DNA of 64,000 nucleotides from assembly GCA_037576195.1 (NCBI GenBank), contig CM075104.1, forward strand, positions 26,490,211-26,554,210, read 5' to 3'. The notes under the pieces are model-generated. The model did no database searches. It was not told the origin of the DNA and saw nothing but the letters and a program-made list of their open reading frames with translations. The position numbers and the translations under genes were made by a program. Numbering within the stretch: position 1 is the stretch's first letter; each line of letters opens with the position of its first letter. This document shows positions 29,260-48,966 of the stretch, piece by piece. This DNA comes from Phytoseiulus persimilis. Lineage: Eukaryota > Arthropoda > Arachnida > Mesostigmata > Phytoseiidae.

Positions 29260-32200
29260 ATGCACGTCCTCAAATCGTTCTACCAAAAGGCTCACCAATG
29301 GTACAACGCTTTCACCGACGAGGTTCCCGGCGCGAGTTTGGGATTCACCAGGATCTGTTTCGGTAAACTAACTGAGCCCCCGAGAGTCTGTGAATGTCCC
29401 CAGTGACCGCCCATATGAGACTGATAGCGCTCTTCCAACAGGTTTACTCATGTTGGCGGACTTGCAAGAAGAGCGCGGAATGTCCATCGTGGACGAGCGT
29501 TTCGGAGATCCTCTCGAGTGTCGTTTTCCGTTGTTTGAGCTCTTGAAACCACTGCGTCTGCAGTACATGGTTCTATTGTACTTGGCCATGATGTGCGGTG
29601 AGTCGTAATTTCGAATTTTTGGGCTACGTGAAGGTTTTCCGTGCTTCGAAACCCCTCTTGCTTCCAGCTCTCGTCTGCGTCGTTCTCGGTGTTGTGTATA
29701 AGTCTGCTCTCACCATCTACATAATCATCTATTGGTATATTTTCCTCGGTGATAAGACTCGGTGGAATAACCACAGCTACTTGTACGGTCTCCTCTCCAT
29801 TATCCTTCTCAGCTGTTCTGCTGATAATTGTCTGTAAGTGGACGAGAAGACGGATCCGCATTGGGCGCTGCGGCTCCTTGATCTGCGTGACGAGAGATTC
29901 TTCGCTTTCCAGTAGCTGGGTGGCACCTTCGATCTCCAACACTGTCCCTCGCTGGAATTATCTCTTTCTGAGACTGCAAATCTTCCTGGTGTATTTCTAC
30001 GCTGGCTTGAAGAAGCTTGACTATGACTGGCTCTGCGGGTATTCGATGCGGGGCTTGGGACACCACTGGGTGTGGACTCCCCTGAGGTCAGTCGGCATCG
30101 AGTCGCTTCAAGGATGGCCGAACACCATCGGGCGATCTCGAAGTCAATTATCTACTACGCAGGGACATTGACTTTCCAGGGTCTTCTTCCCAGTCCACCT
30201 CATCGAGCATCTTGTGATACACGTCGCAGGTTTCCTGTTCGATCTCCTCGTGGGCTTCATCATCCTCTGGAAGCCGCTTCGACCAATTGGAGCCTTTTTG
30301 ACAGTCGTTTTCAATGGCCTTAATTCTCGTATGTTTTCCATCGGTATGTTTCCCTATGTCATGATCGCGATGGTGCCCATTTTCTTCGACTACGACTGGC
30401 CCCTGAAACTGATGAGAAAATTCTCAACGCCTATCGATCGATGCGCTACGAGAAGGAAGAATCAGCCTGCGAAGAGAGTACGTTAGATTTTCAGCGCTCG
30501 GATTCTCCTAGGAAGTTGCGGCCTGTTTCCAGGGCTTCTTATCCGCTTCATTCCAGCGCGTGGCTCTGACAATGAGAATCTTCATCGCTCTTTTCATCGG
30601 TGTCCAAATCGCACTGCCGTTCGTGTCGTCGAAGTTGTTCCCTGGCTACGACACGTGGACAGGCGGTCTTTACGGTCATCAGTGGAACATGATGGTACAT
30701 AACTGGAACCACGGACAGATTAAAATCTCTGTCAGAGACAGAATAAATGGTAACACAATGTATATCGACCACAAGGTGAGATCAGTGCTCAAGACTCCTG
30801 GGAACTCCCTAGAACAACGCTTCCCTCCTCCTCCCCACCCCAACGAGACTTAATAGACTCTCGTCTGTCCCGATATGACCACCGGGGTACCCAGAATGTC
30901 GCCATGGACACTCGGGGGCCCGTTTGGGCCATTTGGATAAGCCAAGCGCTACTGATACAGTGCCTTCTCGAAAACCGAGGCAATGTTGGAATTTTCGTCA
31001 CAATCGCGATCTGCTCTAGAAAATGACCAAGCGCGGGCGCTGGTTCCAACAAGCGGATATGGTTTGGCAGTTCGTTCGTTGTGTCCAACGGAGGCTGGAG
31101 CATGAACTCAATCTGACGGATGTCGAAATAAACGCGGACGTGTGGATGTCTCTCAATTCGAGAGTCACGCAAAGGTGAATGGGCTCTGGGGCTGGGACGG
31201 GGGATCAACGAAACAGAGCCTCTGTAGGATAAATCCAACTCGAGCATTCTCCCTGTAGGATATTCGATCCGCGCGTCGACTTGACTCGAGCTGAATGGAG
31301 TCCATTCAAACGCCCGTCCTGGATTTTCGAGGTCCAACGTGACTTCGATAACCTGCGGCCCACCATGGTGAGCGCTGCCGCCTCGCAAGCACGTTCAATG
31401 AGGGCGACGCACGTGGATTTCCTGCTAGACTTTCCAGGTGAGCTGGAACCGTCCTTATCCCAGAATGAAACCACATGCAGAAACTCTGCATCCTCAAGGG
31501 CTCTCCTCGAACTGTACTCCTGAAACTACGCTTGTTTCCTCCAGGTCTCAGCGTTACAAACTACATTCCGACAGAACTCGAGGGCGTCTACTTATCGATT
31601 CTGGAAGGCCGAACCGTTCTGCAAATAGGGACTCATGAGAGACTGCTGACGAAGGGAGAGCGCGCCATGGTGAGCACCAACTCGGACAGGACACTCGCGA
31701 GCTCGAGTTACCCTTAAATCCCGAATAACGGATCCTTTAGATCACTGACCCCTCAGATGACTTACCCCTCAGATGAGGGACTCCTCAGATGACGTACCCC
31801 CCAGATAACGGACTCCTCAATTAGCGTACCCCTCACATAACGGACTCCTCGGATAACTTTCTTCCGGGGGTAATTTCGGAATAATACGGGGGTGATTTCG
31901 GGATCGATCTGACCATACTTTTGGGGGTTTATGATCGATTTCCCTTCGATCCTTGGTTCCTCCAACGAATCGCACTTGAGTCTCAGGTGATAGCATGCAG
32001 GCCTGCGATCCCGTTATTTGAGGGGAGCGTTATTGAAAGGATTCCAGGGTATTTGGGACAATGGTACCAGCTTCCGTGGACTTTGGATTCACCTGCAAGG
32101 ACCCCTCAGAAATATGGTCAAATCGACCTCGGAATCACTTTGACGGACTCCGAGAAGCATGGTCAGATCGAGCCCGAAATAACCTCCGTTCGGCTTCATT

Positions 32201-32813
32201 CGGTATGAACCTGCCCCCAGAAATGTGGTCAAGTCGATGATGGAATCACCTCCATGGACTTCGACAAGCATGGTCGAATCGATCCCGAAATCACGGATGT
32301 TCGCGGCTCCCTGTTTCCTCCAACGATACTCACTTCAAATTCCCATTCACATGACACAGGCTTGCGACATGAAGTTTGTTATCTGAGGTGTCCGTTATCC
32401 GAGGGATAATTTGGCGAAATGAAGGGTCGCTTATCTGAGGGATTCTAGGGCAAATGTTTTCCTCGGAGAACTTTCTTCATTTCGATCATTCCATTACAAT
32501 CCGAAGATCCCGAGTGGGAGAATTCATCACATCTCAAATGTCGGGGATCGCGTCTCGCTAATGATGTACGCATATCTCAACCGAACCGAGGATGTCCTCA
32601 ATCAGGAACCCGGAAAAAATGCATCCGCTGCGATCAGGAGTATCGACCGACACATCAGGATGTGGATCGACAGGTAGGCGGAACCGTTTTCTCGAGAGGC
32701 ATCAATTGAGATCGGAGCAGGAATGTTACTACCGGTGGCTGTAATCTTTCAGCCTCAGGCTCGTGGCGTGGGCTTTGAAGGAGATGTTAACGGACGCTGC
32801 AGGACTGTTCTGA
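29260..32813 (+). CDS. GGCX: GGCX, vitamin K-dependent gamma-glutamyl carboxylase
   Basis: Eleven exons: 29260-29362, 29442-29597, 29668-29833, 29913-30086 (or 30090), 30181-30477, 30557-30775, 31020-31174, 31259-31437, 31545-31669, 32507-32673 and 32753-32813. The product is about 601 residues; human GGCX has 758, so the C-terminal tail is short. GGCX is an ER membrane enzyme that turns Glu into gamma-carboxy-Glu while oxidising vitamin K hydroquinone. Visible signatures are LECRFPLFELL, GDKTRWNNHSYLYGLL, YAGLKKLDYDW (holding the lysine equivalent to human Lys218), NSRMFSIGMFPYVM, WTGGLYGHQWNMMVHNW and IFDPRVDLTRAEWSPFKRPSW. Both cysteines of the human disulfide (C99, C450) have counterparts. 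Hydrophobic segments run through exons 3-6. The strong donor at the end of exon 4 (GAG|GTCAGT) leaves a phase that does not match exon 5; a weaker donor 4 bp on does. The tenth intron contains a fold-back satellite array. Confidence 0.93.
31716..32460. repeat. Fold-back compound satellite in the GGCX intron
   Basis: 16-bp units run at 31747-31858 (GACTCCTCAGATAACG alternating with TACCCCTCAGATAACG, seven in perfect register plus diverged ones before). Then come one reversed 45-bp unit near 31885-31920, a central segment, four forward 45-bp units at about 32114, 32161, 32227 and 32271, and forward 16-bp-like units near 32375-32450 (TTTGTTATCTGAGGTG, CGTTATCCGAGGG). The two sides are in opposite orientation, so the whole could fold back. 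Segments around CTCCAACGA at 31967 and 32329 also repeat directly. It sits between GGCX exons 9 and 10 and makes that intron by far the largest of the gene. Confidence 0.8.
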
Positions 32814-33122: not shown

Positions 33123-35311
33123 TTACACATCTTCTATTCCATCAAAATCGAAGGCGTCATCGTCGCTCACGGTTTCTTCTTTTTTGACTTTCTTATACGT
33201 TTTCACAATTGTCTTCTCAATTTTGTTCTCCTGGGATTGCAATTGGGAGGTTCCCTGGAGCACCTTGAGGCTTTCTTCGTAGAACTGATTCGGATGCACG
33301 ATCACGGTGTTGAGAGTCACATTGCATCGAGACTCGAAAACCTGAGAAATTGGCGGAAGCTCTGTATTTAGAATGTATCTAAAGCGAGGAGCATTCATAA
33401 CTTCCCATGGCTTCTTTCCGCAGCACCGGGAAGGGAGGAGAAAAAGTTCCTCCAAGCTCACTTACCTTCGTGCAGGCTGCCATATAGTTTGAATTTTTCA
33501 CGTCGGTCATCACATCGTTGATGACGCCGGCGGTGACATTGCAGCTGCGCAAACGAACTTTCAGGGCGTCGGGGTCCAAGACCTTGTAGGGACATCCGTG
33601 ACACTCGACACCGGACGGATTGTGAAGATTCACGATCTTCATGCAGTTGTAGGGTCGGTAGTCAGCACGCTTCCCCTCTTTACCATACGAGTGACGAATC
33701 GCATATGCGTACTCCTTGCTAAACTTGTCGGGTCCGATCGATTTGGCAAACTCTTGACCGAAAAACTTCATAGAATCGTCCAAGGACAGACCGATTCCTT
33801 TGAGGAATAGCGTGTAAGCTAGCCGGCCGGTGTGCTTCAGATGGTGTTTCTCGCGCAAACGCTCGTGCATCATAGACATGCACATAGGGAATGCGTCTTT
33901 CGAGAGCTGGTCCAAGTCGGCAGGGCTGACAGAGCCTTCTTCCCGGAAGGTTCGCTCAGCTTGAATTTGTCGCCGAGCCAGGAGTTTCATAAGAGGAGCA
34001 ATCTGCCAAAGAGGATTCTCTCAACGACTCGAAATCCATCTGATCGGAGTTCACTTGCGATGGTAACTCAGCTAGTGTCGCGGCTGCCGTTTCTCCACAC
34101 TCGGCGTTCCAATACCTTACTCGGAGTAGTTTTCTCACCTGATCGTCTTTGAGGTAGATGTTAGAGCAAGTTGAAAGCTTTGTTAGGACTCGGGAGAGGT
34201 AAGACCTGAACTCCGCCACCACTATACTTTTGGTGTCATCAGGTAGCAGATAAGCCATTCCTTTATCCACATAAACTTTTCTTCTCGCAACCATGTCGGG
34301 CACCATGGAGAAGTGAACTTTGAGGAGGGGGTTTGAATCGATCACCTGTCAAGGGTTTCGGAGGGCTTCTTTTAGACCTGGAGATTGGAATCCTCCCTGC
34401 GTCCCATCACGAATGACGCACAACCTCGAGGCGAAGAACAGGCTCGGCATACCGTCACGGGAATTTCAGGCCGAGCGGAAGCTATGGAACCCATAACGCG
34501 AAGTTTTTCCTCGACCTCGACTGGATCAAATGTAAGACCCCACTGTTCTTGGAAAGCACGTCTTCCTTCGGCTGATTCTCGTCCAAGGCGCAAGCGGAAA
34601 AGCTCTGTTTCCCACTGCAGGAACCATCGTCTCGATTCCTCACTTTGACAGAAAGCCAACCGGAGGGTGAAGTGAGAAATCAGATCCATCTGTAATCAAT
34701 GTCAGCATGCGAATGGGCTGAAGGCTCACCGATCGCGACTTGGAGCCGATTTCTCAACTCAAGTTCAATGATCTTTCACTAAACATCTCGGACGTGTAAA
34801 ATTTTAGCATGTTAGAACCTTCTTGATGTCTCGTGATTCTTCATCATCTCTGCCCACAGCCTGTTGTTGTTGTACCGTTGCATTGACCCATCGCCGCAGG
34901 CCTTTCGATTTCAAATTCGCCAGAAGTGTGTCTTCGAAGTCTTTCTCAGCTCGCGACATTTTTCCGCTCAGTTCTTCTATGCATTGGAGAATTTGCAATC
35001 GTTTATATGCCGCGTCATAGAAATATTCGATGTTACAGAAGTCAGGCAAGCTATCTGAAAGAATATTTTGATTCAGTCCAGTCATTCTACTCTCATCCGC
35101 AGCATCCGAGCTCTTCTCAGGCATCCAACTCCACCATGACCAACTTGATTCGACCGGTGCGATAGGAAATTTTCCGTGAGTTCTCTCCGCGAGAGAGAAC
35201 GAGAGTTCTCTTGGACTTACCCGCTGCGCTCTCGTACATGTCCAGGAGCCTGATTTTATCTCTACTCAACCGAGATATTTTCTCGAGTCTCTTCCTGCTG
35301 TTGAACTCCAT
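33123..35311 (-). CDS. PRIM2: PRIM2, DNA primase large subunit
   Basis: Six minus-strand exons (35311-35221, 35054-34819, 34689-34453, 34345-34139, 34002-33466, 33341-33123) give 508 residues; human PRIM2 has 509. The large subunit holds the iron-sulfur cluster of the pol alpha-primase complex and helps the catalytic PRIM1 start RNA primers. The four cluster cysteines are all visible, in FPMCMSMM, YNCMKIV, CHGCPY and AACTK. Other strong matches are MDLISHFTLRLAFCQSEESR, RRKVYVDKGMAYLLP, EKHHLKHTGRLAYTLFLKGI and RHSYGKEGKRADYRPYN. The start MEFNSRK matches human MEFSGRK. The tail is acidic (DDDAFDFDGIEDV), as in relatives. The intron after exon 2 uses an unusual donor (AAG|GTTCTA). Exon 1 and part of intron 1 were duplicated to 39.5-39.75 kb. 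Head to head with PDRG1. Confidence 0.96.
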
Positions 35312-35731
35312 TATAGCCTTTCGGTTCGAACACACATATACAGTCCAATCCAGTTGACCGCGCCTGAAATTCAGGAGGACCTACTTGGCGCCAAGAAAAC
35401 AAAACAAGCTGCCGCTAAAATCTGAGCGTCCACGATTGTAGCGCTCGGAGTCGAGTCTTACCAGAGAGCTGAACTCGAACAGCTGAAGCCGGCCAGAGTG
35501 AAGAGCGGAGAAGTGAAGGAGATCTAGACAGGTTCGTGACGTTGTTCCGAGTTGCTGCTTCAGCAGAAAGCCTTGTGCGCTCCTCGAGTTTTGAGGGCTA
35601 CATTTCACCCATAGCGTTGGCATCTCGTGCTCTTGACCGTACGTGGAAGGTACCGAGTTGAGAACCGGCGTTCTCGTGAAGACTCGAACTATTCCAAGTC
35701 TTGAAGCAGTGAAGTGTTATTCTGGACCAAC
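35312..35731. promoter_or_regulatory. Bidirectional promoter region PRIM2 / PDRG1, copy A
   Basis: About 420 bp between the PRIM2 start (-) and the former PDRG1 start (+). It is closely related to 39752-40180 in copy B. It must still drive PRIM2. CACATATA-like sequence occurs near 35331 and 39788 in the two copies. Confidence 0.6.
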
Positions 35732-36166
35732 ATAAGTTCGCCCGGGTTTCTGGAGAGATATCTCGTTTCGGAGAAAATCTTTAGTATTATGAAGCATATG
35801 GAGCTCCTGACTGAAGACATCCTCGCAGACAGGCGGAAAATGATTGAGCTTGACAAGGGGCGACCGAAGAACCGAGAGGCTCTGAGAGCTCTCAAGAAGG
35901 CTGATGAAATGTCCAGTGCTTCATCGCGGGTTTGGCATGTCCGCGGCAGCAGTTTCGTGCGTACAGACAATGACGCGGCTGAAACAAGTGATTCAGCGGA
36001 GCAAGCTGAAATCGAGAACGAACTGAAGGTCTTACGGAAGCGAATTAAAGAGACTGTGCAGGAACTCCGGTCGCTTGAAAGTAACAAGGGGATCAGAGGC
36101 TGCGATCTCGAACCACTCAGTAAGGAGGAGAGAGATGCGGTTCACAAAATAATAGGAGGCTCATAG
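35732..36166 (+). pseudogene. PDRG1: PDRG1 copy A, start codon lost
   Basis: The reading frame of p53 and DNA-damage-regulated protein 1 is open to its stop at 36164-36166, with conserved ILADRRKMIELDKGRPKNRE, LRALKKADE and GIRGCDLEPLSKEERDAVHK. At the position of the ATG used in copy B (40181) this copy has ATA (35732). The first downstream in-frame ATG is at 35789 and would remove 19 residues of the first helix. The AATAAA that follows copy B is also destroyed here (ATCAAATG against ATCAATAAATG). Human PDRG1 is 133 residues, a prefoldin-like subunit of the R2TP/PAQosome complex. No internal stop has appeared, so the loss is either recent or a shortened 125-residue protein is still made. Confidence 0.8.
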
Positions 36167-36388
36167 GATTTCATGTATGCATGGTACGATGTATTATCAA
36201 ATGTTCATGTTTGGAGCTCTCGAGCCTACTGAAGATTCAAGCTGAATGATTTCGCCCACACTCTCCGTTGGCTCTTTTCTCATCGAGATAAATCATGGGC
36301 GGGCTTACCAGCACTTTACGAACTCTTCCACAGAATCACTCCCAATTCCACGCTGCTGGTCACGTACTTGTTTTACAGGGCAATAAAA

Positions 36389-37894
36389 ATGATGCGAGGA
36401 ATCCTCGTCAAGGCGTTGGGAGGTCCAGAAGTTATGAAGCTGGTTGAGATTCCTCATCCGAAAATTTCGACGGAGGAAGTGAGTTCTTAAATATAATGTC
36501 GTCTGTATCCGAATCTTTTGAGTCCTGAAGGCAGTTGCGGACCGACTGCGTATGGTTTCTGTCCGATGATTCCAGTCGCGAATGATGTTTGCCATTCCGC
36601 TAGGTTCTGATTCGTGTGGACTACGCTGGTGTGAATCCGGTGGATACGTATATCAGGTCCGGCACGTTGGGTAGAGAACCGATCTTACCGTACACGCCAG
36701 GAAAAGACGGCGCTGGTACAGTTGAGGGAGTCGGCGGTGACGTTCGGCATGTCAAAGTGAGTGTCAGTGTATCTAGTGTATTGTTCCTTGAGCAAGTGCA
36801 AGAATAGAATCATGGTGAAGAATCCAGACTCGATAGGCCACCCCTAACCCCCTTCCCCCAAGTCGTTTCATTCCATGTGAATCACTGAATTTCAGCCCGG
36901 CGATAAGGTTTTCTTCTGTGCGATGTTCGGCAAAGGAATTCACGGATCATATGCTGAATTAGCCGTGGCTCATAAAGGAGAGGTTTGGCCCCTACCTGGT
37001 GGGGACTCGATGGTAGGAGCTGCCCTGGGAACGCCATACTTCATGGCCTACAGGGCCTTGATCACAAAGTCAGTGTCTGATGTTGAATGATGTGTATTTC
37101 TCCTCAATTAATTCGTGATCCTCCATCTAATTATTATACGGTAACAGGGGACAAGCTGCCCAGGGTAAGAGTGTTCTGATCCATGGTGGCACCGGCGCCG
37201 TTGGTCAGGCCTGCGTTCAAATTGCCAAGAAAGAAGGGATGCGAGTGTTCGCTACCGCCGGAAGTGCCGTTGGGAAGGAGATTCTCAAAAAACTGGGAGC
37301 CGATTGCGTCCTAGACCATGGACAAGCAGAAGAAAGTAGGATCGCTGAACTGAAGAAGAACGCACCTGGTGGGCTGGATGTCATCGTTGAGATGCGAGCC
37401 GACCTCAATCTCGGAACGGATTGTCAGGTCATAGGGAAGAATGGGAAAATCTTGGTACGTTCTGACTGATCACTCGAAGGCGAACAATCTGAGAGCGGTA
37501 CTGACTGAGTGCAACGCTTGAGAGCCTCGCTTCGGATTCTAGGTGGTCGGCAACCGAGGAAGCACCAAGTTTGATGCGAGGTTCCTGATGTTCCCAGAGG
37601 CGTCGATAACAGGAGTGGCTCTCAGGGCCTCTACAGAGGTAAAATTCTCGGTTTTGATCTCGCGTATCTCCTTCCGTCCGGATCGCGTCATCATCAAGCG
37701 AAATAAACTACTCATTCATACAGGAAGAGTTCCAAAATGCTGCGACTTATGTGAGCCGGGGGGTTGAAGAGGGCTGGATACGTCCTAACATCTCGAAAAT
37801 CTACCCTCTGGAGTCGGCACCGGATGCACACGTGGACATCATCGGAGCCAAGGATGGTTCCACAGGGAAGCTGTTGATCAAAGTGAGCCCTTGA
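36389..37894 (+). CDS. CRYZ: CRYZ copy A, zeta-crystallin/NADPH:quinone oxidoreductase
   Basis: Six exons (36389-36478, 36604-36756, 36896-37068, 37148-37454, 37543-37638, 37724-37894) in matching phases give 329 residues, the length of human CRYZ. This is a zinc-free medium-chain dehydrogenase that reduces quinones with NADPH; some family members also bind RNA. The substrate domain has [16 protein letters not shown] and [17 protein letters not shown]; the nucleotide fold has [19 protein letters not shown] (GxGxxG-like), then GADCVLDHG and GGLDVIVEM. It ends [17 protein letters not shown]. There are two adjacent ATGs (36389 and 36392). A TTTTACAG just upstream suggests a spliced 5' leader. 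Poly(A) signal at 37907. Confidence 0.95.
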
Positions 37895-37906
37895 GAACGT
37901 GAATCG

Positions 37907-37912
37907 AATAAA
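37907..37912 (+). promoter_or_regulatory. Poly(A) signal of CRYZ copy A
   Basis: AATAAA, 13 bp after the stop codon; conserved in copy B at 45195. Confidence 0.6.
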
Positions 37913-39660
37913 TGTGTTCAGGTGAACTCGGAGCGGAATCAGTATTCAATTTGTGTCTCAGAGCGCTTCATTCCCCCAACGGCGTGATCTGGACAGTTCT
38001 GAGTCTACGACACGTTTGAAGAGAGGAATGGAGAAACCCGATCGTTCGAGGGGATGAGGGAGCGGAAAACGCATGACATAGAATCTCGTCCGCAGAACGT
38101 CTGTCCAAGGAACGGAAAATCGTGCCAAATAAACCGATGAGAGGGAGGTGGACTAAGAACTGAAAACAAACCTCCTCTGACCCGCGCTTCGAAGAAATCG
38201 CATTGAGAACGATTCTCTACCCTGACGAGGTCACCGTTGGCTCTCGGCCATGATCCGGCCGAGAAATCTGGGTTGACAGCGTTTTCGATTGAATTTCCGC
38301 TTGGAGGCATCTCTCTGTCGGGCGGAGATCAGCTTCTTTGATCTGAAAGCCGGCGGAAGTCGAGACCGAAAGCTGCCTCGGACCTGATTGGACGACCTAT
38401 GAAGCCAAATGGAAGCCAAGCGACGGACCCAATCAGATCTGTGATCCTGTTGTCCAGGTATGACGAGATCAAGCAGGATATTTTTCGGATCGACTGGCGA
38501 TCGCAACGATCTTGTGACCCTGCGATTAAATCGCAATTGGAATATGCATTCGTGGAGCCACGATTTCAAGAGACCACGATACGAATTCAAAGCAAATTTC
38601 GTGCGAACAGGTAAACAGTTCTGACTCGTCTAAGAATCCGCATGGCGGCGATGGTGCGCTGTCGTGGGAACAACTGGAGCATAATCAAATCCTACGTCTG
38701 AGTCAGCTCTTCATCTCCTACTTCGTTGCTGATGCTAAGAGAATTCCAGCCTCAGATGGTCCACAATCAAGGCTGCGCTGCAAGTTCTTTGTCAGGGACT
38801 TTTAGAATCGATCGAGTAGTCAGAGGAGTGGGATTCGCAACCGATTCCCACCTGTGAGCGCTCTTTCTGGGTCTGAACATGCTTGGCGAACCTCGCAACT
38901 CCGGCCGCGTTCATCGTCGAGCTTCCAAACTCGGATACTCCGTCTATTTGTTGAAGCACGACGTCTCGGGCGTGGTTCGGAGTTGGCGGCCAACTGAATT
39001 CAAACGGTTGACCTCTCCCACGACTCTGTCTCCGACAATCGTGAGCGCGTGTCATGTTTCTCCTCCGTCTCGATGGTTAACGTTGGTGTGTGGTGCGTTC
39101 AGCCCAGTTCAGCATTTAGCTCTATTGTAATTCGTGTGTAGGTCCATGACCATTTATGGGTCCCATGGTTTACCAGAAAGGGACCGTTCCAAAACTCGGG
39201 TGGATTCTCTTCCATCACTGCCACTACTCTTGCCGCGGTCGCTGCCTCCCGAGCGTTCCTTGCTGGGACGGGAAGGTTCTACTGCCTGCCAATGATGGGG
39301 ACTTCACACAGATCTAGGGTTGATCCAGTCCTGCCGTTGCCGAGGCCTGGAAACTGTGTGGGGGTGGACGGACGAACTTTGAATAAACTTTGGAAGATGA
39401 ACAAAGATCGGAGGTCGAGAGTTAACGAGGGTCGGACCCTGGTAGCGCCAGTCGCCACCAGTGTGGGCTTTGTGGGAGGCTCTCTGTCTCCTGGTTTCTC
39501 AGAATATTCCAACATAGTGTTGGCGTTCTACTCTCATTCGCAGAATCCGAGCTCTCCTTAGCCCTCCAACTCCAACATGATCAACTTGATCTGACGGGTG
39601 CGGTAGAAAACTTTTCGTGAGCCTATCCGCGGTATAGAACAAGACTTTTCTTGGACATAC

Positions 39661-39751
39661 CCGCTTTGCTCTCGTACATGTCCAGAAGCCTGATTTTAAC
39701 CCTACTAAACCGAGATACTTTCCCGAGTCCCTTCCCACTGTTGAACTCCAC
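39661..39751 (-). pseudogene. PRIM2: Orphan PRIM2 exon 1 in copy B
   Basis: 91 bp equivalent to PRIM2 exon 1 (35221-35311), still ending at a donor-like GCGG|GTATGT. The start ATG is now GTG, and several residues differ (EFNSGKGLGKVSRFSRVKIR). No further PRIM2 exons follow, since the duplication boundary lies in intron 1. The fragment cannot make PRIM2. Confidence 0.85.
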
Positions 39752-40180
39752 TATAGCCCTTCCGTTCGAGCCTGCAACTGATCTGCCACATATATAGTTC
39801 AATCCAGTTGTACGCGCCTGAAATTCAGGGGGACCTACTTGGCGCCAAGAAAACTAAGCAGGCCGCCGCTAAAAGCTGAACGTCCACGATTGTAGCGCTC
39901 GGAGTCGAGTCCCACCATAAAGCTAAATTCGAACAGCTGAAGCCGACCTGATCGAAGAGCAGAGAAGTGAAGGAGATCTTGACAGGTTCGTGAATAGGAT
40001 TCCCAGTTGCTGCTTCAGCAGGAAGCCTTGTTCGCTTCTCGAGGTTTGAGGGCTCCATCCTACCCAGAGCGTTGGCATCTCGCGCTTATAGTAGGAAGGT
40101 ACCGGGTTGAGAACCGGCGTTCTCGTGAAGACTCGAACTATCCCAAGTCTCGGAGCAGTGAGGTGTTATCCTGGACCAAC
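39752..40180. promoter_or_regulatory. PDRG1 promoter region, copy B
   Basis: Counterpart of 35312-35731. Here only the PDRG1 direction still leads to an intact start codon. Confidence 0.6.
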
Positions 40181-40615
40181 ATGAGTTCGCCCGAGTTTCC
40201 GGAGGGATATCTCGTTTCGGAGAAAATCTTCAGTATTATGAAGCAAATGGAGCTTCTGGCTGAAGACATCCTCGCAGACAGGCGGAAAATGATTGAGCTT
40301 GACAAGAGGCGACAGAAGAACCGAGAGGCTCTGAGAGCTCTCAAGAAGGCTGATGAAACGTCGAGTGCTGCTCCGAGGGTTTGGCATGTCCACGGCAGCA
40401 GTTTTGTGCGTACAGACAAAGGCGTTGCTGAAACAGCTATCTCGGCGGAGCAAGCTGAAATCGAGAACGAACTGGAGGTCTTACGGAAACGAATTAAAAA
40501 GACCATGCAGGAACTCCGGTCGCTTGAAGGTAACAAAGGGATCCGAGGCTTCGATCTCGAACCACTCAGCAAGCAGGAGAGAGATGCGATTCACAAAATA
40601 ATAGGAGTATCATAG
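40181..40615 (+). CDS. PDRG1: PDRG1 copy B, prefoldin-like subunit (intact)
   Basis: A single-exon gene of 144 residues. The ATG at 40181 gives MSSPEFPEGYLVSEKIFSIM, then the first long helix ELLAEDILADRRKMIELDKR, then QKNREALRALKK. A second coiled-coil helix (EQAEIENELEVLRKRIKKTM) leads to GFDLEPLSKQERDAIHKII. Human PDRG1 (133 residues) shows EVLADKRQIVDLDTKRNQNR, REGLRALQK and GFNLNPLNQDELKAL at the same places. PDRG1 is part of the prefoldin-like module of the R2TP/PAQosome chaperone machine. This is the copy with a normal start codon and a poly(A) signal (40645). It reads away from the orphan PRIM2 exon. Confidence 0.92.
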   Translation: MSSPEFPEGYLVSEKIFSIMKQMELLAEDILADRRKMIELDKRRQKNREALRALKKADETSSAAPRVWHVHGSSFVRTDKGVAETAISAEQAEIENELEVLRKRIKKTMQELRSLEGNKGIRGFDLEPLSKQERDAIHKIIGVS

Positions 40616-40644
40616 GGTTTCATGTATGCATGGTAAGATGTATC

Positions 40645-40650
40645 AATAAA
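40645..40650 (+). promoter_or_regulatory. Poly(A) signal of PDRG1 copy B
   Basis: AATAAA 30 bp after the stop; the equivalent site in copy A is mutated. Confidence 0.65.
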
Positions 40651-40672
40651 TGTTCATGTTAAATATCGTTGA

Positions 40673-42858
40673 CTAGCACTACCCGTTTCGGCAGTATTGA
40701 ATAGGGCGTGGGGAGCGCGATGTCTGATACGTCTCTTCACCGGAACGTGGCGGTCGTTTGACCTTATTCAGGTAGAAATCCTCGAAATTATTCTTCAGTA
40801 GATTGTTCGCTGTTCTTGAGGCGATAAGATAACCGGGAGAATCCGCCGACGGAAGCGGCTACGCGAGCGGTTCAAAGGAGTGCTGGCGCTCCGAAGGTGC
40901 CTTGGAGGACTCCTCGGAGTTGTTTCTCACTGCTACTAGCGAATTCGTTGGGGTCTTCGATGGAGGGTCCAGCGTCGCCTGAAATTATCCATTGAGCGTC
41001 GATTTTGGATTTCTTTTGGGAATGAGATCATGATGATCTGGACCGAGTTGCGTCTCTTGGGAAGATCTTGGGTTTCTCTGTGGACCCGATTCTTGAGAGA
41101 GTAGTGAAGTGATTTGGCGATCGATGAATGAGTCAGGACGGCCGTATTCCCGAACATAGGTCATCGCATCTTGTGCATCTTCATGCATGTGGCGCGGACT
41201 TCCCCCAGACGTCACTGGCAGCATGACTCTCTCCCCAACCTCGTACGGATTCACGTCCCCATCAGCCGCAACTGCATCACCCAAGTCTATATACTGTTCA
41301 GCACGAAGGTCTCTCTGATGCGTCCGAATGTGTAACAACATTTCGGTCTAGATTTTCGCATAAACATCAACAACGTATTGTTGAAACAATTTCCGACATT
41401 TCAAGATGTGATTCTCCATGTTGAAACGGACCATCAATCGATATCCATAATAGTTCATCCCACTGACGCAGAGGTCGTCAGAGTTTCCCGACATTGGCAC
41501 CCCAGGGTGTCGAAAGGTGCCGCAGCGATGAACTCGTCGAGAAGGTGCCAAAGGTTACCTAATGTGGTTCTTACCGCACTTGAAAGATGCTTCCGTCTCG
41601 ATCTGACCATATTTCTGGGGATCTATTGAGGTAATTCCGGGATGGATCTGACCATACTCTTCGGAGTCGATGGAAGGGATTCCGTGGTCGATGTGACCCC
41701 CGGAAATATGTTCAGATCGAACCCGGAATCACCTCCATAACACCTTAGAAGGATGGTCGGATCGCTCTCTGAATCACCCGCATGGAATCTCAACGAGTAT
41801 TGCGGAGTCATTACCGAAGTATGGTCAGAACGGAAGAAGACGTCGTTTGTCGTCATAAGACGCCCCTTGTCCCTTGACCACTCTTCGCTCTTCGGCACCC
41901 AGCGACACCCTTAACACCCTCGACACCCCGCGACCCTGGTGTGTCGGAACACAGTTTGACGACCTCTGCGCTGACGTTTTCCTCCGGGTATTGATCCATA
42001 CGAGGGTCCCTCATCTTGATATCAATATGATTCCCATCTTGACCTTCCCAATGAATCAACGGATATTGCAACGCATCATAAGCGTGATGCGTTTCACATA
42101 TAATCTCCAGGTCTCCATTCATAATCTTGGTCGCCTCAAAAAAAAGTCATTTGGAAGCATGCATGATACTCACGAATATTTTCCACGAAATGGTTCGATT
42201 CTATCAAGAAAAAATCTGAAATTTCCATCCCTAATGTCCTCGATCGTAGGATCGTCAGAGTCTGAGCCTGAGGAACCAAAGAGCTGTGCGACTGTAAATA
42301 TAACCGCAGACCAGTTCAGAGGAAGTCCCAAGGGAAACAGTTCAACTTTTCCATCCCAACAACACATACCTGCGGACTCACCCCTGTATTACAATGCGTG
42401 ACAATAGACACACACCTTATCCATGTTCCCGAAAAAACGCTCGGGGGACTTCCATAGTCATACTGAGGACTGTACTGGTACGCAACACCGCTCAGCCCAC
42501 AGACCCTTGATCGACGCACTCGATTCATCCGCTCTCTGTTACTCTAACGTCTTAGGTGCCTTTGCTCTCCTGTCTCTGAGAGGCGACTCGCTTCGTGTCG
42601 TCCGCGATCGACTTCCAAATTTATTTGTCTTTGTTCTTCCGCCGCTGAATTACGAACACAGTTCAGTACTAAAATGCCCTGCAGTCTCGCTTGTCTTTCG
42701 CCCTGCGTCTCTTGATCTCGTCGTCCAGCTATGCGTCCCCGCTCGATTTCCAACCGAGCCATTCGCACATCATCGCTCACTTCTACGCGTGCCCTCCTCA
42801 AACGTTTCGCTCCTGGTGTCACTCGCCCAAAACGGAGACGTTTCGGTAGCATCTTCAC
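40673..42858 (-). mobile_element. Defective Helitron (N-terminal Rep fragment plus 3' end)
   Basis: On the minus strand, pieces of a Helitron replicase occur in the usual order. They are an Arg-rich N-terminal region (42858-42544), CCWDGKVELFPLGLP (near 42360), HAYDALQYPLIHWEGQDGNH (near 42090), MNYYGYRLMVRFNMENHILK and KLFQQYVVDVYAKI (41463-41348), an in-frame TAG, HQRDLRAEQYIDLGDAV, and GGSPRHMHEDAQDAMTYVRE...GRPDSFI (41215-41110). The Rep nuclease HUH-Y motifs and the helicase are missing. The minus strand ends with a hairpin (ACTGCC-GAAACG-GGTAGT) and GCTAG followed by T, as expected of a Helitron 3' terminus (CTAG at 40676-40673). The 5' end is not defined. Confidence 0.8.
41467..41970. 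mobile_element. 504-bp TIR element with TCAG target duplication, nested in the Helitron
   Basis: The ends CGCAGAGGTCGTCA (41467-41480) and TGACGACCTCTGCG (41957-41970) are exact inverted repeats, with weaker symmetry for some 30 bp further in. CTGA (TCAG on the minus strand) flanks both sides at 41463-41466 and 41971-41974. Dropping the element and one TCAG joins the Helitron protein in frame across ENVS|GMNYY, so the boundaries are firm. The interior holds 45-bp satellite units in both orientations (reverse at about 41597 and 41645, forward at about 41709 and 41754). No coding capacity. Confidence 0.9.
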
Positions 42859-43405
42859 TAGATTACAACTGCTGAAGAAACTACCGACCCGCGAAGTTGG
42901 ACTTCGATATCCGAAGTCGGAATCTCGCCACCATTCCGAACCCCATATAACTGATAGTGCAAACGAGGAAGTTCAATTTTTTTCCGGTTTTTCCGCTACA
43001 GTAATCTGAGGCGTGTACCACTAACGACCGAACCGACACTATGGTAAAACCCAGCGCAGACGCTCTTCGACACTCTCCTGAAATTCCACGTTCAACGCTT
43101 TCCTCCCCACTAAGTTCATCGGGCACTAACTCACAGACGAACATTGCCTTTTATAGTTATGGATGTTTCACTCTGAATACAAGCGCCGTTGTGATAAGCT
43201 CTCCTCCTCTTCCGTTGAGAGGAAGCATCTTGTGTCGAAGAGAGAAGGAGTGTGCGAATGTGACTTCGCGAGAATCGTAACCACGAGCTCGTGCGTGTTT
43301 TTTTCTTCATCTCCCGAAAAGTTGTCGAGGCAGTCTCGATCGTCGGTGCCCTTTGAACATTTCCCGGGTTCCCAATCTCCCCAATCACCTTTCGTGGTCA
43401 ACAGT
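42859..43405. other. Remainder of the block inserted in copy B
   Basis: This 550 bp has no counterpart in copy A. It probably holds the 5' part of the Helitron or flanking captured DNA. Short frames on both strands are not recognisable. Homology to copy A resumes at about 43405 (TTTGGAGCTCT). Confidence 0.5.
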
Positions 43406-43589
43406 TCGCGTTTGGAGCTCTGAAACCAAGTGATGATTCCAGCTGAATCATTTTGCTCACACTCTCCACCAGTCCTGTCCTCCTCGAGATAAATCATGGG
43501 CGGGCCTACGAGCGCTCGATGAACTCTGCCGCAGAATCACTCCAAATTCCACGTTGCTGGTCACGTACGTGTTTTACAGGGCAATAACA

Positions 43590-45182
43590 ATGATGCGTGG
43601 AATCCTCGTCAAGGCGTTGGGAGGTCCGCAAGTTATGAAGCTGGCTGAGATTCCTCATCCGAAAATTTCGAGGAAGGAAGTTAGTTTCCAAAATGGTGTC
43701 GTCTTTACACGAATCTTTTAAGCCCTGAAGGCAGTTGTTCACCGACTGCTTATAATTTCTGTCTGATGACTCTGTCGCGAAAGATGTTCGCCATCCTCGT
43801 CTAGGTTCTGATTCGTGTGGACTACGCTGGTGTGAATCCGGTGGATACGTATATCAGGGCCGGCACGTTTGGTAGAGCACCGACCTTACCGTACACTCCA
43901 GGCAAAGACGGCGCTGGCACAATTGAGCGAGTCGGCGATCAGGTCGAGCGTGTCAAGGTGAGTGTCAATGTATCCAGTGTACTGTGTCACCTATAAAATG
44001 CAAGAATAGAAACATGGTGGAGCATCCAGACTCGACGCCCCCCACGTCGTTTGATTCCATGTGAATCACTGGATTACAGCCTGGCGACAAGGTTTTCTTC
44101 TGTTCGATATTCGGCAAAGGAATGCACGGATCGTATGCTGAATTGGCCGTGGCTGATGAAAGTGAGGTTTGGCCTCTACCTGGTGGAGACTCGATGGTAG
44201 GAGCTGCCCTAGGAACGCCATACTTGACGGCCTACAGAGCCTTGATCATGAAGTCAGTATTTGATGTTGCATAATGACTCGAGCCTGGAAGTTCCGGCAG
44301 TTTTTCGAAATCATCCACTCATCGCAATGGATCAATCCCGTGATCCCGCCTGAACTTCCAGGCTCCAATGATGACCAATTCTCTTCGATGGATTTGTGAT
44401 CCTCCGATCTAAACATCAATCGAAAACAGGGGACAAGTGACCCAGGGTGAGAGTGTTCTGATCCATGGTGGCAGCGGAGCCGTTGGTCAGGCCTGCGTTC
44501 AGATTGCCAAGAAAGAAGGGATGCGAGTGTTCGCTACGGCCGGAAGCGCCGCTGGGAAGGAGATTCTCGGAAAACTGGGAGCCGATTTTATCCTGGATCA
44601 TGGACAAGCGGAAGAAAGTTTAATCGCTGAGCTGAAAAATAACGCACCCGGTGGGCTGGACGTCATTGTTGAGATGCGAGCCGACCTCAATCTCGGAACA
44701 GATAGCCAGGTCATAGGGAAGAATGGGAGAATCCTGGTACGTTCTGGCTGATGATTCGAAGGCGAAAAAGGAACGTTCTGAGAACAGTTCTGACGGGTGC
44801 AACGCTTGAGAGCCTCACTTCGGATTGCAGGTGGTCGGCAATCGAGGAAGAACCAAGCTCGATGCGAGGTTCCTGATGTTCCCAGAGGCGTCGATAACAG
44901 GAGTGGCTCTCATGGCCTACTCGGAGGTGAAATTCTCGGAAATTATCTCGCGTGTCCCCGTCTGCCCGGGTCGCATCATTATCAAGCGAAATAAACTACT
45001 CATTCATACAGGAAGAGTTCCAAGATGCTGCGATTTATGTGAGCCGGGGGGTTAAAGAGGGCTGGATACGTCCCAACATCTCGAAAATCTACCCTCTGGA
45101 GTCGGCGCCGGAATCACACGTGGACATTATCGGAGCTACGAAAGGGTCCACAGGCAAGCTGTTGATCAAAGTGGGCCCCTGA
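43590..45182 (+). CDS. CRYZ: CRYZ copy B, zeta-crystallin/NADPH:quinone oxidoreductase
   Basis: Six exons of exactly the same lengths as copy A (43590-43679, 43805-43957, 44080-44252, 44430-44736, 44831-44926, 45012-45182) give 329 residues with no stop or frameshift. The NADPH loop [19 protein letters not shown] is intact. Substitutions against copy A are spread through the protein, for example AGTFGRAPT for [19 protein letters not shown] for [10 protein letters not shown], and VTQGES for AAQGKS. The first donor is GTTAGT rather than GTGAGT. The retained frame argues that it is still functional. Intron 3 carries an 85-bp TIR insertion. Poly(A) signal at 45195. Confidence 0.94.
44281..44365. 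mobile_element. 85-bp TIR insertion in CRYZ-B intron 3
   Basis: GAGCCTGGAAGTTC at 44281-44294 has an exact inverted copy GAACTTCCAGGCTC at 44352-44365. The segment is absent from the same intron of copy A, so it arrived in copy B after the duplication. Target-site duplication is unclear. Confidence 0.7.
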
Positions 45183-45194
45183 GAACGTGAAGCG

Positions 45195-45200
45195 AATAAA
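45195..45200 (+). promoter_or_regulatory. Poly(A) signal of CRYZ copy B
   Basis: AATAAA, 13 bp after the stop codon, as in copy A. Confidence 0.6.
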
Positions 45201-46412
45201 TGTTTCCAGCTGAGCTTGGAGTGGAATCAGTATTCATTGTGTCTCGGAGCGTTTCATTCCCCCATCGGCGTGATCTGGGCAATCTTGAGCTCACGAGGCA
45301 TTTTAAAAGAGGTACAGAGAAACCTGATCGTTTGAGGCGATGGGATAACGGAAAACGCATGAAATTAAATTCTGTCTGCAGAAGATAAGAGCTCGTCTGT
45401 CCAAGGAACGGGGAGCCGTCCCGTACGAACCGATCAGAGGGAACGGGAGTGAGAACTGAAAATAGGTAAACCTCCTCCTGACAAATATGGTGCGTTGTCG
45501 GACACGGAAGCAACGGGAGCATAATCGAATCCTACGTCTGAGTGAGCGCTTCATCTCCCGCTCCGAAGCCGATGCTAGGAGGAAAGCACGCTGCCTCCGT
45601 GTCGAATAGTTCCAGCCTCAGATGGTCCACGATTAAGGCTGGGCTGCAAGTTTTTCGTCAGGGACTCTTAGAATCGATCGAATAGCTTGAGGAATGGGAT
45701 TCGCCGTCGGTTTCCATCTGTGAGCGCTCTGTTTGGGTCCGAACATGCTCGGCGAACTCCGGTAGAACGTGGCTCGTAGTTGGCGGGCAACTGAATTCAA
45801 ACGGTGGACCTCTCCCAAGACTCTTTCTCCGGCAATCGTGAGCGCGTGTGATGTTTCTCCTCCGTCTTGATGGCTGGCGTTGGTGTGTGGTGCGTTCAGC
45901 CCAGTTCAGCTTTTAGCTCTAGTGTAAATTGTGTGTAGGTCTATGACCATTTATGGTTCCCATGGTTCACTAGAAAGAGACCGTTCGTGGGAAAACGAAA
46001 CGTGGGGTCCGCCTATCGGACGTCGTGATCAGGCTCCTTTCGAGTGCATTTGGGAATAAACTGTGTTTTCGCTCTTCCAGGGTAAGTTTCGAAACTTGGG
46101 TGGAGTTTCTTCCATCACTGCCACTACTCTTGCCGCGGTCGCTGCTGCTGCCTGTTGACTGTTCCTCGCTCGTATGAAAAGGTCCTACTGCTCGTCAACG
46201 ATCGAGGCTTCACAGAGATCCAGTGTGGATCCAGTCCTGCCGGTACCGAGGCCTGGGAACGGTGTGGGGGTGGACAGACGAACTTTGAATAAACTTTGGA
46301 AGATAAACAAAGATCAGAGGCCGAGAGTTAACGAGGGTCGGACCCTAGTGGCGCCAGTCGCGACCAGTGTAGGGTTTGTGGGAGGTTCTCTGTCTTCTTG
46401 GAATATTCCAAC

Positions 46413-48966
46413 ACCGTTTCGGCCAGTGTGCGGGTGTGATCTTGATAACGAAAACTTTCTGTCGAGAATATTAGGAGACTCAGTTAGAGTGAAACTTATT
46501 TCTGCGAAACTCTGATGCGTTTTCGGAAGTAACCCTCGGCCTATGATTGAGATGATCACCAGCTGCCTGTGATAACTTCTCGATCGTTTCGTCTAGAGTC
46601 CTGATAACGGAAAGGGGTGAGTTGTCGTTGATGAGCGATCCGCTTTGATTCGGAGTCTTGGAACTCGATGCGATTCTCGCAGCGGGAAAGCTCGCAGGCC
46701 GGACAAAGTTCGACTGATTCTCCAATCGAACGGGGCATTTCCTCGATGGCCAGTCGTGTCTCTGCGAGACATCCGAACCTCTATGAATTTCCCTCGGAGG
46801 GTTTATCGAGAAAATATTCGTCCTTGACTCGCCACCACTAACCTTATTTGGGTTTAGCTGGCCGACTAAGTGACAGGCAGACTGACGAATGGATTGTCGG
46901 ACAAATTCATGTGAGAATATCGCGGCGCTCGTTGTCTATGTTTACGTGTCAAACAGCTTTGTTTGAAGACGGGAATGTCGCCAGCGATTCGGTGACACCT
47001 CGTTTTATACCGAGGATCTTGTCGGAATTCCGATGAAATTCCAAGATCTGCATGACTCACGCCATCTGATGTGAAGCACATTCTTGACGAGTGACTATTA
47101 TCCTCGAGATGAAGTTCCTCAGAGAAAACCCCTTCGAGCGCATAGTCCTGTTGATGATTGTGATGGGATTAGAGGCTCGCAGGTCTGAGCTGGTGTCCCT
47201 AACCGATCCGAAATTCTGTCTCCGTGTCAGTGCATGCGAGTGATATCGCATCGAAGCGAGCCTTCCGTGGATTATATCAGGCTTTCATCGGTGATCAGAC
47301 GGAAGCGAATCGGCGCGGTCTGCTTTGGAAGTGTACGGGGGCGTGAAGCTTGGCCGGTGCAAGTCGGCGAATTCCATTTTAAGCAAGACGAGAGAGTTGA
47401 TCGTGGTCACGGGAGAAAAGTCAGCCTACGCTTTTTCTTTGTGCCAAACGAACCCGGCCATCAATGGTAGACTCTTCTAGTATCGTGAATGAACGTACAA
47501 GTCGAATTCGTGTCCATCATCCCTAGTTCTTGGAAAGCAACAGCCCTATGGGTGCGTGAGTGCAGGAGAACCAGTGTTGGGTTCCCACCGCGATTCCCGT
47601 GGGACCGAACGCGTCGGTCTCCGACGGAGTTACTTGTGGGGTGTTATTGCTCCATAGTTGGTGCTCATACTTGCGGTAAAAGCTCCCGTTGCCCCATTTC
47701 TTCGGGCCCACGAGAGATGAAGTCGTGGTTGGTTAAGGAGCCTCGACGACCGAACGGGATTCAGAGAGGTATACCGATTCTTCGCTCATAAGTGTCATGA
47801 ACTGCCCGTTCAGCGGCAGTTACCGTCAACCACATCTCTGGGGACGGATGCCACACCCTGAGTCCTGCGTCGGCTCTCGAATTCAGGACCCAGTCCTCAC
47901 GACGTTCAAGCAGTGATGTTTGCATTCTATATCTCGCGAAATCGGGCGCTGAACAGAGCCGTGCCAGATCTGATATTCGCCGTTTGAGTACTCCTTATTA
48001 GCTCCGTCGAATCGAGCTCACCACTATTCAAACATCGAGTGGTCTCTCAGAGGAACAACAAAGTCGTGAATGTTTTGACTAGATCGTTGCGGCTGCTACG
48101 GGGTCCGATGTTTCATTGACAGAATGATTCGGGGACGACAGTGCCGCCCGAGCGCCGGGTGGCGGCTGCAGCATGAAATCACTCAACATATCTAGAGATA
48201 CTCAACTCAAAAGGGGAGCATGGCGATATTGCCTCGAGTCGGTGCTTTCGAGACAGACGCTCTATCGCCACCGTGGCGCTGTTGTTTTAGATTGGCTGAG
48301 CACTTTACTGCCATGTTCTGCAGTTTTCATTCAGCGGAGCAAAATCGGACTCTACTCCGAAACATTTCCCGCCACACTCCCATTCAGGACTCGGTCGAGT
48401 TGGCTGTCAAAGTCGACTACTACTTCATGGAGCGCATCACCATGAATGTGAGCCCTTCATCCCGCACGAAACTCGAACCCGGGTGAAGCCGTCCTGCACC
48501 CAGGCGCCGCGGATCACGATGATTTCGACTCCTTAAGCGTACTCTATGAATAACGAGGCCTCTACGTAGCAGAGTGAGAGAGGGAGATAGTTCAATCGAT
48601 TCAAGTAGCGTGCCCGACGGTCTTTTGGCTAACGAATTCGACAGAAATCTGAGTCGTAGAGCTTCGTCGTGATCTTGGATGTAGCCGTTGTGGTCACGTC
48701 ACTCGTGGAACGGCCTTGGCGTCGTTTCTTTCTCTTGAAATCCATCGGATGAGTGTTGCCAGCTCCTTGCGACCTTGGTAGCAAAAACCTAGCCTCATAT
48801 CACTACGAGAACATCGAGTTCCGAACTCAACTCCTTAACAGTCGATGATAATGAAAGAACTTATCGAATATCTCTTCTACTTCCAGCTCCGTTGAATACA
48901 AACGAAACTTGTGACTTTCCTTCGGGTGCTCTTCGCGATTCCGTTGCGAAGTCTGCCCGCGACAGT
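46413..48966. other. Region without a recognised gene; one exon-like stretch
   Basis: Between the duplication and kindlin I see no known protein. At about 48333-48450 (+) a stretch preceded by TTCTGCAG and followed by AAT|GTGAGCC reads SAEQNRTLLRNISRHTPIQD, then SVELAVKVDYYFMERITMN. It looks like a real internal exon but I do not recognise the protein and found no partner exons. It could belong to an unknown gene. Confidence 0.4.

Follow-up and report, generated by a model that had tools for sequence, protein, structure and literature searches.

How did two genes that appear to have faced each other across one intergenic region come to stand beside different copies of it? The question is raised by a 64,000-nt stretch of the Phytoseiulus persimilis genome (assembly GCA_037576195.1, contig CM075104.1, positions 26,490,211–26,554,210 of the forward strand; hereafter the window, with coordinates counted from its first base), in which the genes for the DNA primase large subunit (PRIM2) and for a protein we name PDRG1 lie head to head. 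The intergenic region is present twice, and intact PRIM2 and intact PDRG1 sit beside different copies of it. In the initial annotation of this locus the arrangement was attributed to reciprocal gene loss after tandem duplication of the divergent pair. The results reported here point to the same end state reached by a simpler route, namely a single duplication that would have cut PRIM2 within its first intron, with probable decay of one of two redundant PDRG1 copies.

Self-comparison of the window revealed two similar units lying side by side in direct orientation. The segment 35085–36211 matched 39526–40660 over 1142 bp at 86% identity (E = 0), 36197–37092 matched 43398–44276 and 37086–38181 matched 44367–45482, both at 84%, and three more matching pieces reached 39514 and 46413, a similarity far above chance. 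The units span 35061–39514 (unit A, ≈4.45 kb) and 39502–46413 (unit B, longer by a 2.7-kb insertion) and have common edges. Both terminate in the same 13 bases, GAATATTCCAACA, found at the junction between them (39502–39514) and again at the right edge (46401–46413); at the left edge only the word GAATATT is present, which is in this way common to all three edges (35061, 39502 and 46401). The left edge falls within 35061–35085, in the final bases of PRIM2 intron 1, as judged from a self-BLAST match starting at 35085, an ungapped repeat of 79% identity at 35060 and the common word at 35061. One duplication with two breakpoints would account for all of these edges, which are most simply read as the product of one event. 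The tandem duplication of the PRIM2/PDRG1 head-to-head region, on which the initial annotation was built, is thus confirmed.

Two haplotypes set in tandem during assembly would refute the reading as a duplication, as the initial annotation itself had acknowledged. The units differ at 13–18% of noncoding positions, corresponding to 0.15–0.21 substitutions per site according to class, 19 insertions or deletions (indels) were counted alongside the 1944 noncoding columns that could be aligned outside the intergenic region (16 of them of a frame-breaking length), and the 2.7-kb insertion is carried by one copy only. Such a divergence, together with indels and a one-copy insertion, is more than expected of misplaced haplotypes. 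Moreover, the junction cuts PRIM2 within an intron and both units lie on one contig longer than 26.5 Mb, so that an artefact of this kind is hardly credible. When the assembly (181 Mb in 127 contigs, the window being on contig C4) was searched with the intergenic stretch of copy A, only two places were found, in units A and B, and the part of the unit carrying a quinone oxidoreductase-like gene (see below) retrieved six matches, all within the window.

The intact PRIM2 gene (PRIM2-A) occupies 33123–35311 on the reverse strand, with six exons (35311–35221, 35054–34819, 34689–34453, 34345–34139, 34002–33466 and 33341–33123) coding for 508 residues; it begins with ATG at 35311 and its gene model contains no internal stop. 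The frame containing exon 5 scored 198.1 bits with the DNA_primase_lrg family (PF04104) and resembles primase large subunits in the PDB, and the gene was identified as PRIM2 on the basis of this domain and of its full structure. What unit B keeps of PRIM2 (PRIM2-B) is exon 1, at 39661–39751 on the reverse strand, and nearly all of intron 1; 12 of the 91 exon bases differ, the donor reads GTATGT, and GTG stands in place of ATG at 39751. To this extent the initial annotation, which had described an intact copy A and an exon 1 remnant with GTG in copy B, was accurate.

The term reciprocal loss did not stand, as it requires both genes to have been complete in both copies before a different one was lost from each. 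The homology between the units ends at 35061–35085, just short of the start of exon 2 at 35054, hence PRIM2-B is a partial gene duplicate, its homology stopping within the gene where the duplication has its breakpoint. The duplicated unit does not include exons 2–6, and all 508 residues, searched against the assembly, gave seven matches, of which six belong to the gene and the seventh to the exon 1 stub, with no second copy of exons 2–6 among them; likewise, a protein search of the window from 36200 to 64000 detected exon 1 only and no remnant of exons 2–6. Since the homology runs no further than the breakpoint in intron 1, exons 2–6 most likely escaped copying, and PRIM2-B would have been truncated at birth. 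An identical end state would have been produced had the whole of PRIM2 been duplicated and exons 2–6 deleted from copy B afterwards, but the deletion would then have had to end, by coincidence, at the junction, with the two units sharing their 13-base end and the left edge lying just within the end of intron 1, and to leave none of the exons behind; we regard this course of events as very unlikely. The only candidate for a true loss is the PDRG1 copy of unit A, which still has an open frame of 143 codons.

PDRG1, a single-exon gene, was copied whole, and in both units its frame comprises 144 codons closed by the stop codon TAG. The copy in unit B (PDRG1-B, 40181–40615, forward strand) starts with ATG at 40181, codes for 144 residues and is followed by an AATAAA signal at 40645–40650. 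In unit A (PDRG1-A, 35732–36166, forward strand) the start codon is replaced by ATA at 35732, with codons 2–144 open, and the first ATG triplets from 35600 onward, at 35789 (codon 20) and 35798 (codon 23), are both in frame. These readings agree with the initial annotation as to the intact copy B and the ATA of copy A. It had further stated that PDRG1-A has lost its AATAAA: no counterpart of the signal at 40645 was found in copy A, nor any AATAAA ahead of 36382, yet the difference is unpolarised, so that a loss is one way of reading it. Copy A carries GATAAA at 36287 and an AATAAA at 36382, the latter immediately before the ATG of the next gene (36389).

The name PDRG1 rests on the human sequence as we take it to be, with which copy B is identical at 46 of 133 aligned residues. 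PDRG1-B scored 29.8 bits with Prefoldin_2 (PF01920), above the gathering cut-off of 27.6, and can be placed in the prefoldin family, whereas PDRG1-A, at 20.4 bits, falls below the cut-off. Searched against the assembly, the PDRG1 protein retrieved the two copies and one further match at E 7.6; a search of solved structures brought up three weak matches (RNA polymerase, hexon-interlacing protein, PIX) and no PDRG1 chain.

Several observations suggest that PDRG1-A is decaying. A disabling mutation, ATA for ATG, of the kind that marks an unprocessed pseudogene is present, with the in-frame ATG at codon 20 downstream of it. The two copies differ in 36 codons, 25 of which change the residue, the start included. 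When all 25 differences were introduced into PDRG1-B as five blocks of copy A residues, the Prefoldin_2 scores were 27.2, 27.7, 24.5, 28.8 and 29.3 bits, so that each block cost between 0.5 and 5.3 bits; the model, which covers about residues 35–117, is a weak one for PDRG1. Leaving out the start codon, the differences at first, second and third codon positions numbered 15, 11 and 15, against 25, 20 and 54 in the oxidoreductase pair (Fisher p = 0.064), that is, the third-position excess is absent in PDRG1. The ratio of nonsynonymous to synonymous substitution rates (dN/dS) was 0.47 (NG86) or 0.77 (YN00) for PDRG1 and 0.36 or 0.45, respectively, for the oxidoreductase pair. A lead in the same direction, rather than a test, came from polarising the differences with the human PDRG1 sequence we assumed, to which 23 of the 25 differing sites, the start codon among them, could be aligned: copy B fits better at 13 sites and copy A at 8, with 2 ties; identical residues are 7 for B and 3 for A, and the alignment scores are 196.5 and 166.5, respectively. 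Several of the polarised sites (60–87) fall in the poorly aligned middle part, and the comparison leans towards faster change in copy A.

Other observations weigh against decay. The contrast in codon positions between PDRG1 and the oxidoreductase pair falls short of p = 0.05, and the largest drop in score (5.3 bits) is due to residues 80–87, which are not the best conserved stretch, in a Prefoldin_2 match that is itself weak. PDRG1 codon positions 1 and 2 differ less than noncoding columns do (26/286 vs 325/1944, p = 0.0007), an effect that could stem from copy B alone. PDRG1-A has acquired no stop or indel across 143 codons. In a neutral simulation in which the branch was set to half of the divergence and the indel rate was taken from the noncoding columns (16 frame-breaking events of 19 beside 1944 columns), a frame remained intact with P = 0.03–0.05, so some constraint has probably acted on PDRG1-A during part of its past; if neutrality was limited to half of the branch, the frame was intact in 20% of runs. 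PDRG1 third positions are also little diverged (15/143 vs 325/1944 noncoding, p = 0.06), for which reason the clock may run slowly here, or may have been reset by conversion between the PDRG1 copies, and either would raise the probabilities of an intact frame.

These points bear on a different account, in which PDRG1-A is alive and is translated, under the promoter shared with PRIM2, from codon 20 (35789) or codon 23 (35798) into a protein of 125 or 122 residues that keeps the Prefoldin_2 stretch. As the first two ATGs downstream of 35600 are in frame, loss of the start alone might shorten the protein rather than abolish it, and the frame is open to the normal stop with no indel. It has to be set, on the other hand, against the Prefoldin_2 score below the family cut-off, the radical changes R43G and Q45P, at sites where we believe human PDRG1 to have K and N, the lack of AATAAA until 36382 and of a third-position excess, and the context of both downstream ATGs, which looks weak by the rules for start sites as we presume them to be. 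A shortened protein is accordingly the less likely product, although its probability is far from negligible, and PDRG1-A is probably a pseudogene in decay, perhaps a recent one.

Since a single base decides the fate of the start codon, the ATA could also be an assembly or base-calling error, or a polymorphism with ATA as the minor allele, in which case both PDRG1 copies would be functional and the genome would simply hold an extra PDRG1. The otherwise intact frame is compatible with this; neither the loss of score nor the radical changes at other sites of copy A depend on that base, and we consider such an error or allele improbable.

The following course of events would bring these data together. 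One tandem duplication of ≈4.45 kb, bounded by a left breakpoint at the end of PRIM2 intron 1 and a right one downstream of the quinone oxidoreductase gene, would have copied the PRIM2–PDRG1 intergenic region, the whole of PDRG1, the whole oxidoreductase gene and, from PRIM2, exon 1 only. PRIM2-B would have been dead on arrival, as follows from the breakpoint. With PDRG1 made redundant, the copy beside intact PRIM2 would have lost its start codon and come to differ at 24 further residues, and the copy beside the PRIM2 stub would have stayed intact, which of the two changed, and when, being deduced from the comparisons above. As the sequence shows, each intact gene now lies at a different copy of the formerly shared intergenic region. 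We assign a probability of about 0.75 to this explanation as a whole, with PRIM2-B cut off and PDRG1-A decaying. Given that PRIM2-B was cut off, either PDRG1 copy was dispensable and the loss of copy A was one of two outcomes, so no selective benefit needs to be invoked; the end state is the one described in the initial annotation, and it would be a tidy but unexceptional result of duplication.

The putative bidirectional promoter corresponds to the 420 bp between the start codons in copy A (35312–35731) and to 39752–40180 in copy B. Their alignment contains 55 mismatches over 414 columns, plus three gaps; the copies are homologous, in keeping with the copied promoter of the initial annotation; they are marginally less diverged than the other noncoding sequence (55/414 vs 325/1944, p = 0.09). 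The window contains exactly two occurrences of the motif TTGGCGCCAA (expected 0.03), at 35385 and 39839, i.e., at the same place in both intergenic copies; these being homologous, the two occurrences count as one site. We take it to resemble an E2F-type site, which would suit a replication gene. Conserved blocks were not clustered more than in shuffled mismatches: the longest identical run between the intergenic copies is 36 bases (35657–35692, p = 0.25), the third longest, which contains TTGGCGCCAA, is 24 bases (35377–35400, p = 0.20), and the best 45-base window gave p = 0.37. With blocks no longer than chance and a divergence near that of other noncoding sequence, there is no sequence sign of selection on both promoters. 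PRIM2 and PDRG1 are presumably each driven by their own copy of the putative promoter. A bolder proposal would be that the duplication ended the sharing of one promoter by PRIM2 and PDRG1, that the promoter copies then specialised, for a replication phase in the case of PRIM2 and another programme in that of PDRG1, and that PDRG1-A yields an N-terminally shortened isoform coupled to PRIM2; we hold this to be highly improbable.

The unit contains a third gene, coding for a quinone oxidoreductase-like protein, which was absent from the initial annotation and of which both duplicates have been kept. Copy A (36389–37894) and copy B (43590–45182), both on the forward strand, are intact, with six exons and 329 residues each, and their exon 4 frames scored 49.6 and 47.4 bits, respectively, with PF00107. 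The two proteins are identical at 281 of 329 residues, and GT and AG are present at all introns of the models.

The 2.7-kb insertion of unit B (40660–43398), directly after the AATAAA of PDRG1-B, is repetitive and composite. A Helitron_like_N fragment was recognised in the frame 41347–40985 (44.1 bits, E 3.4e-11), and no clear target-site duplication was seen at the insertion. Its sequence gave at least 70 matches in the assembly, the window included, with 40 of 426 candidates scored, and pieces of it recur at many places on contigs C1–C4. As separate observations, a 97-bp insertion without counterpart in copy A (44270–44372) lies in the third intron of copy B of the oxidoreductase gene, its inverted-repeat arms (44274–44298 and 44348–44372) giving it the look of a small terminal-inverted-repeat element, and a 460-bp stretch at about 38171–38630 is present in unit A and missing from unit B, having been either gained by A or lost from B. 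Clusters of a repeat of about 45 bp around GATCTGACCAT, in both orientations, were also noted at 31886–32294, 41585–41783 and 2422–2529.

The locus shows that a duplication breakpoint can pass for gene loss. If expression agrees, it would also provide a natural experiment, with a head-to-head region of ≈420 bp present twice in one genome, each copy beside one intact gene, that would let one look for decay of the unused direction in both intergenic copies.

Duplication followed by pseudogenisation of one copy is the process known as nonfunctionalisation. Two complete PDRG1 copies, one of which has a broken start and scores lower against the family, are what this process would leave; unlike in the usual case, the broken frame is still open, and the broken copy is the one adjoining intact PRIM2. 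Divergent pairs with bidirectional promoters have been defined by start sites within 1,000 bp of each other (PMC2670823), and PRIM2 and PDRG1 are comparable to them in being head to head at 420 bp, a distance measured here between start codons and not between start sites. In the part of that source consulted here, tandem duplication is treated as an origin of divergent pairs and not as a means of separating them, and no tandem duplication separating a bidirectional pair was described in the titles and abstract openings covered by our incomplete literature search. According to a figure legend in a review (PMC3449122), an intronic breakpoint can yield a derived copy that is truncated and retains the 5' flank, the leading exons and a portion of the broken intron. 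PRIM2-B, in which exon 1 is followed by most of intron 1, is of the kind depicted there and belongs to this known class; no new mechanism is needed. Unlike in the case illustrated, the same event here also copied two complete neighbouring genes and the head-to-head intergenic region between PRIM2 and PDRG1.

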